From contig CALUWK010000017.1 of NCBI GenBank assembly GCA_944324475.1, positions 1 through 36,004 of the forward strand: a stretch of DNA of 36,004 nt, read 5' to 3'. Positions within the stretch are counted from its first letter, which is position 1. The number at the start of each line of letters is the position of its first letter. The DNA comes from Candidatus Gastranaerophilales bacterium. GTDB lineage: Bacteria; Cyanobacteriota; Vampirovibrionia; Gastranaerophilales; Gastranaerophilaceae. Of this stretch, positions 35,568 through 36,004 are shown in pieces. The notes beneath the pieces were generated by a model. It was not told the origin of the DNA. It did not search any database and saw only the letters and a program-made list of their open reading frames with translations. Made by a program: the position numbers and the translations under genes.

Positions 35568-35595
35568 TTGCAAGAAATATTTTATTTGATATGAT
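35568..35595 (+). promoter_or_regulatory. Promoter of the tRNA-like RNA array and tRNA-Arg
   Basis: TTGCAA (35568-35573), a 16-nt spacer and TATGAT (35590-35595) predict a start near 35602, just before the first GCCCTGG at 35606. No comparable promoter is visible between the later units, so the two RNA copies and the tRNA are probably co-transcribed. Confidence 0.6.
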
Positions 35596-35605
35596 TTGAA
35601 TATAG

Positions 35606-35755
35606 GCCCTGGTAGCTCAGCTAAATGCGTGAGCCGGTGCGAAATCGGTGAGGCGATGAGCCTCGACGATGAAGCAGTCGATAGGCGACGTAGGATAATT
35701 GAGGCTGTGAGGCGACTAAGCCGAACAATGCCGAAATACCCACAGGAGCTAACAA
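35606..35755 (+). ncRNA. tRNA-like structured RNA of unknown family, copy 1
   Basis: The unit is about 55% GC by hand count over its first 150 nt, in an AT-rich genome, and encodes no plausible protein. It begins with the same 17 nt as the downstream tRNA-Arg (GCCCTGGTAGCTCAGCT). A D-arm-like stem GCUC/GAGC (35615-35618, 35631-35634) and an acceptor-like stem GCCCUG with CAGG(A)GC (35606-35611, 35743-35749) are possible. Inside are hairpins CGGU-GCGAA-AUCG (35635-35647), GAGGC-GAUGA-GCCUC (35650-35664), GUCG-AUAGG-CGAC (35677-35689) and GGC-GACUAA-GCC (35711-35722). There is no anticodon arm, T arm or CCA. Not matched to any RNA family I know. Confidence 0.6.
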
Positions 35756-35775
35756 ATTGAAAATTAAATAATTAA

Positions 35776-35925
35776 GCCCTGGTAGCTCAGCTAAATGCGT
35801 GAGCCGGTGCGAAATCGGTGAGGCGATGAGCCTCGACGATGAAGCAGTCGATAGGCGACGTAGGATAATTGAGGCTGTGAGGCGACTAAGCCGAACAATG
35901 CCGAAATACCCACAGGAGCTAACAA
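35776..35925 (+). ncRNA. tRNA-like structured RNA of unknown family, copy 2
   Basis: This copy is identical to copy 1 over the full 170-bp unit, including the AT-rich tail up to 35945. The real tRNA-Arg starts at the position where a third copy would begin. Confidence 0.6.
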
Positions 35926-35945
35926 ATTGAAAATTAAATAATTAA

Positions 35946-36004
35946 GCCCTGGTAGCTCAGCTGGATAGAGCAACTGCCTTCTAAGCAGTAGGTCATGCGT
36001 TCGA
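35946..36004 (+). tRNA. tRNA-Arg(UCU), 3' end beyond window
   Basis: The acceptor 5' strand is GCCCTGG, then TA, D arm GCTC-AGCTGGATA-GAGC, anticodon stem ACTGC/GCAGT with loop CTTCTAA (anticodon TCT), variable AGGTC, and T arm start ATGCGTTCGA. All conserved tRNA positions visible, including the D-loop GG and TTCGA, are present. The 3' strand of the T stem and acceptor stem lies past the right edge. Confidence 0.93.

Follow-up and report, generated by a model that had tools for sequence, protein, structure and literature searches.

Probable non-autonomous dispersed hairpin repeats in tandem within a duplicated tRNA-Arg(UCU) 5' portion in a Gastranaerophilales bacterium

Introduction

Why does a tRNA-Arg(UCU) gene of a Gastranaerophilales bacterium lie behind two near-identical units that each open with the gene's own 5' end? 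The array is at the end of the window (the whole stretch of 36,004 nucleotides that was analysed), which is also the end of contig G000:C17. A first-pass annotation made from the sequence alone had read the units as a tRNA-derived noncoding RNA, perhaps a tRNA mimic or an element that spreads at tRNA 5' ends. Here, we followed up this reading by computational comparison with relatives.

Results

The array consisted of two direct repeats of 170 nt each at 35603-35772 and 35773-35942, and the first 20 nt of the repeat were present a third time at 35943-35962 (all array coordinates refer to the forward strand). The units were present as the first-pass annotation had described them, 99% identical and each opening with the 5'-terminal 17 nt of tRNA-Arg(UCU). 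The tRNA gene itself started at 35946 (Rfam RF00005, 40.3 bits) and was truncated by the contig end (35946-36004); the reverse strand of contig C50 (G000:C50) shared 77 nt with the window end and completed tRNA-Arg(UCU), which was followed by a terminator-like hairpin and a T run. Both units were placed between the intact tRNA gene and a single promoter-like site, TTGCAA-16-TATGAT at 35568-35595. One such match was expected by chance; the same promoter directly adjoined tRNA-Arg(UCU) in empty sites of relatives (L065, L066).

In the first unit, the copied tRNA 5' end (GCCCTGGTAGCTCAGCT, 35606-35622, a sequence repeat) was followed by a hairpin element at 35623-35749, with a left arm at about 35623-35683 and a right arm at 35684-35749, and then by a boxA-like leader, TTGAAAATTAAATA, at 35757-35770 (motif match). 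A GAGCTA at 35746-35751 was the complement of TAGCTC (35613-35618) in the copied tRNA end. The second unit repeated this order, with the copied tRNA 5' end at 35776-35792, the element at 35793-35919 (the model search placed its right arm at 35854-35920) and a TTGAAAATTAAATA motif match at 35927-35940 preceding the real tRNA. Elsewhere in the window, an open frame with repeated LYNYLFLFDFDKFLSDN-like blocks (237-554) probably represents short DNA repeats.

The core of the element was about 127 bp long, some other copies being longer, with extra arms. A DNA search by BLAST, a check that the first-pass annotation had proposed, found it in 28 of 58 relatives, 27 of which belong to the genus; 27 of the 28 genomes of the genus, this genome counted, thus had copies, dispersed and often in tandem. 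A covariance model of the right arm (R1), searched across 286 genomes of the order, matched 56 of them in 14 of 50 genera at 1-17 copies per genome, with 3 copies in this genome. In a pattern scan of 84,980 species, the named organisms among the matches listed were all Gastranaerophilales, Melainabacteria or Cyanobacteria, the rest being uncultured bacteria. The core had no coding potential, as first stated, and matched no family in Rfam 15 at the gathering score; only the real tRNA scored among these families, so the view that no known RNA family applies also held. The literature searched contained no account of such repeats in Gastranaerophilales. Separately, some copies (L023, L005, L058) bore an extra junction arm (CACACAATCCGTTAGCG...ACGGATTGGAAACACCCTTGGGGTGC), and a second dispersed palindromic repeat of type GTCACCCTGAACTTGTTTCAGGGTC was seen at L006, L012 and L019.

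The unit had a predicted fold of -56.8 kcal/mol, compared to -40.4 ± 4.0 kcal/mol in dinucleotide shuffles (z = -4.1; better than 200 of 200). Among 49 diverse sequences of the right arm, changes on both sides were seen in 8 of 16 pairs, with 77 double changes cf. 27.7 ± 4.7 in shuffles (0 of 500 reached 77) and 2-12 in slid-partner controls; the copies are related, which inflates these counts, and the slid controls lacked the signal. One block, GCGAC/GGAGC with a tandem G.A inside, was swapped as a whole for CCGCC/GGCGG or CCGGC/GCCGG. The left arm also covaried (G-C 62, A-T 31, G-T 4, discordant A-C 4; Fisher p = 2e-17). Compensatory changes were therefore carried by helices of both arms, and the covariation in homologues for which the first-pass annotation had asked was strong. 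Distal stems varied freely, and entire arms were exchanged between copies. Overall, both arms of the core are conserved and covary, and the repeat is multicopy and patchily distributed. Its conserved noncanonical motifs count against a purely selfish element, as they suggest selection for something more than spread.

Copies distant from tRNA genes carried no tRNA start. Between co-directional genes the element favoured the upstream gene's sense strand, with 31 of 41 copies sense and 10 antisense (p = 0.0015, an optimistic value, as orthologous copies are not independent), and it often started directly after a stop codon. In RNase P RNA, eight species (G005, G006, G007, G008, G012, G013, G017 and G026; loci L322, L324, L325, L326, L335, L336, L337 and L338) had the element, or an arm variant, in place of the P12 tip, which was empty in most other species. 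A match to RNase P RNA was absent in three genomes, and the RNase P RNA of several species had odd additional sequence near P3. The element also lay directly ahead of the start of Mu-type transposase genes (L086, L122, L146, L158, L192 and L272), with its AGGAG end at ribosome-binding distance from the ATG; the type was assigned in L192, where the gene for the transposase's ATPase partner came next (Pfam Mu-transpos_C and TniB, PHROG transposase). On a phage contig (L195) it separated the tail-tube gene from the tail-assembly chaperone gene. At about 3900-4150 of L147 it was enclosed by a pair of AAGATAATATTTGTAATAA copies plus a terminator-like hairpin, an architecture shared with the tRNA locus. 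Eight copies overlapped long ORFs, mostly on the opposite strand or at the ORF start. The element thus occupies peripheral or untranslated positions: the P12 tip, tRNA leaders and sites just past stop codons. This patchy spread over varied sites is as expected of a mobile repeat.

At tRNA-Arg(UCU), the promoter was joined to the tRNA in the empty sites of G001 and G004 (L065 and L066) and in others, and other relatives carried this element or other hairpin inserts behind the same 17 nt. The tRNA-Arg(ACG) site was empty in this genome (L003). A TA after GGAGC, which lengthens the end of the element, occurred in 3 of 7 script-found copies located at tRNA genes vs 1 of 108 elsewhere (Fisher p = 0.0006). 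The inserted unit carried the boxA-like leader and the empty sites of the nearest relatives lacked it, so that plain target duplication is insufficient as an explanation. The boxA-like sequence TTGAAAATTNAATA was found just upstream of tRNA genes with longer leaders, and with up to one mismatch it had 130 matches in this genome vs 63 for the reversed pattern; we term it only boxA-like because the 10 loci searched held no rRNA.

Taken together, the array probably consists of a structured, dispersed and non-autonomous repeat, present twice in tandem and set in a duplicated 5' portion of tRNA-Arg(UCU). The first-pass annotation was right about a structured, RNA-like and uncatalogued element that spreads and occurs at the 5' ends of tRNAs. 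The element would spread as a mobile element and would be tolerated by the host since its RNA would fold as a closed domain. The tRNA promoter may drive transcription of the array as a ~345-nt leader, which RNase P would cut off at the genuine 5' end of the tRNA. Duplication of the 17 nt would leave both the sequence downstream of the promoter and the real tRNA intact, and the element end, when lengthened to GAGCUA, could close on the copied UAGCUC.

Units that open with a tRNA's own 5' end were not confined to this gene. About ten tRNA genes of the lineage were preceded by such units: those for Arg(UCU), Arg(ACG), His, Pro (two genes), Phe, Lys, Asn and Leu and, at the end of contig C39 of this genome, a Met-type tRNA start (L294). 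The upstream units there comprised the tRNA's own 5' end and a hairpin. A second kind of unit held a segment complementary to part of positions 5-34 of its own tRNA; the 3' part was antisense to the downstream D-arm in L129, L103, L159, L242, L076, L278 and L294, and as many as four such units stood in tandem at tRNA-Phe. This complementarity exceeded that of shuffles in 11 of 13 units (p of 0.023 or less), and the own tRNA was the best complement for 9 of 11 units when tested against 20 tRNA 5' halves. By eye, the Met and Leu units shared a core (ACTCTGCCGA ... GCGGTT) and differed in their antisense parts, which look as if they had come from the target. No counterpart of self-complementary tRNA-leader units was found in the literature searched.

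These observations raise the possibility that the units are functional pre-tRNA leaders that act as a switch on how the tRNA behind them folds or is processed at its 5' end. Such a switch would be built from the hairpin, the duplicated start of the tRNA and, where sister units have one, the D-arm-antisense segment, with hairpin elements as its recruited raw material. The range of tRNAs preceded by their own 5' ends, the preference of the antisense segments for their own tRNA and the recurrence of boxA-like leaders ahead of units and tRNAs are all consistent with such a switch. However, the window's own units had no antisense match to their tRNA above shuffles (p = 0.62), several species of the same genus lacked a leader unit at tRNA-Arg(UCU), and a genome from a different genus within the family had no leader unit among 31 tRNAs. 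We therefore consider a switch possible rather than probable for this locus. It is likewise unlikely, if conceivable, that the lineage has an undescribed leader system in which tandem pseudo-tRNA units control how the tRNA after them folds or has its 5' end processed; each unit would then comprise the tRNA's own 5' end, an exchangeable insert, often a D-arm antisense and a boxA-like motif, and the dispersed element would be one exchangeable part. Any function of self-copy leader units is one that we infer, and is offered as putative.

How a gene-less repeat reached these sites was examined through its flanks and candidate enzymes. Flanking direct repeats were long at tRNA genes and in L147. 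At most other copies target duplication was not beyond chance, and a uniform target-site duplication was rejected outside tRNA loci. With long duplications restricted to some sites, a single insertion mechanism cannot cover all of them. A RAYT/Y1 transposase partner was rejected, with PF01797 in just 1 of 27 genomes. So was a reverse transcriptase partner: reverse transcriptases were present in 12 of the 27 genomes and were not linked to the element, many copy-bearing genomes having none (G018 has numerous copies without any). One stand-alone RVT_1 reverse transcriptase was seen at 1189-2394 of L263, with similar ones in the 12 genomes, and is perhaps of the diversity-generating retroelement type. 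Phage origin was also set aside: an annotated phage collection gave no match and IMG/VR matches lay on 5 contigs only, and phages therefore look like carriers.

The units might alternatively be site-specific cassettes that integrate via the copied tRNA 5' end as their attachment core and, like integrative elements, accumulate in tandem. In L056 and L058, different tandem inserts indeed lay between copies of the same leader and tRNA 5' end, and each unit supplies its own leader copy. Yet the units encoded no recombinase, integrase or other gene, the repeat end ranged from tRNA position 11 to 20, and the same element occupied many sites without such a core, which makes site-specific cassettes improbable.

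The initial proposal of a noncoding RNA derived from a tRNA, or of a tRNA mimic, is very improbable. An exact tRNA 5' end does open each unit, and the D-arm-like and acceptor-like stems of the first-pass annotation can fold. However, at most sites, away from tRNA loci, the core has no tRNA sequence, which speaks against a tRNA-derived origin. The 3' strand of the acceptor-like stem, CAGGAGC, is the element's own and covaries with GCGAC inside the element, within its own helix; at tRNA-Arg(ACG) the acceptor-like pairing is lost, since CAGGAGC has no pairing partner in GCGCTTG, the leading tRNA strand there. The start of the element has several interchangeable variants (GCGTGAGCC, GCGTAAGCC and GCGAAGCC), and the D-arm-like GAGC is one of these. 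Both stems are best explained as incidental to conserved strands that belong to the element, and the tRNA-like start of the unit is probably duplicated target DNA, not a new tRNA mimic.

An assembly artefact, which the first-pass annotation had considered and which the contig end at the array and the similar ends of C38 and C39 might suggest, can be dismissed with near certainty: comparable arrays of two or three units lay within contigs of independent assemblies (L056, L058, L078 and L103), and tandem arrays as such are therefore not artefactual. How many copies this genome has exactly is uncertain, as the array coincides with a contig end.

Discussion

Compared by description, the behaviour of the element most resembles that of YPAL in Yersinia, RPE in Rickettsia and mitochondrial hairpin elements. 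YPAL (RU-2) are palindromic Yersinia sequences of about 168 bp with target duplications of 3-26 bp, which insert next to dyad symmetries and are expressed together with upstream genes (PMC2229807). Both they and the element are not A+T-rich, are intergenic and have internal inverted repeats; a target beside dyad symmetries and putative expression with upstream genes are further parallels, and target duplications of variable size may be another. The GC-rich two-armed fold with a core of about 127 bp is a feature of this type. In contrast to YPAL, whose hosts belong to another phylum, the element has conserved noncanonical motifs in two arms, exchanges whole arms, forms tandem arrays and inserts in RNase P RNA and tRNA starts, and its duplications, long at tRNA genes, are lacking at most other sites.

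RPE (Rickettsia palindromic elements) are 105-146 bp long (PMC2229807). Like the element, they are short hairpin-forming repeats that also occur inside RNase P RNA (in Rickettsia, tmRNA too), and the insertion into P12 in eight species is the corresponding stable RNA feature here. RPE are noted for inserting in frame into proteins, which was not seen as a rule for the element.

Fungal mitochondria contain double-hairpin elements, and sponge mitochondria have their own repetitive hairpin-forming elements. The sponge repeats are termed RHE (PMC2800124). Mitochondrial hairpin repeats resemble the element in their intergenic scatter and in being divergent and patchy among relatives, but they reside in organelle DNA and have no conserved core of this kind. 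In cyanobacteria, STRR sequences occur in P12 of RNase P RNA. As repeats at P12 in a related lineage they may be comparable, although they are short tandem repeats and the element is two-armed and structured. REP/BIME sequences with RAYT are also dispersed, mosaic, hairpin-forming and intergenic; here, by contrast, the Y1 transposase was absent in 26 of 27 genomes, and the element is longer and strand-biased. Integrative elements at tRNA genes encode an integrase, unlike these gene-less units.

The dispersed element adds an uncatalogued and well-supported family of structured repeats to a poorly studied gut order. Because no obvious mobilising enzyme accompanies it, it offers a clear test of how gene-less hairpin repeats spread. 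Its insertions lie in two RNAs of the tRNA-maturation path, namely pre-tRNA leaders and RNase P RNA, and the self-complementary tRNA-leader units could reveal a new control of a single tRNA.
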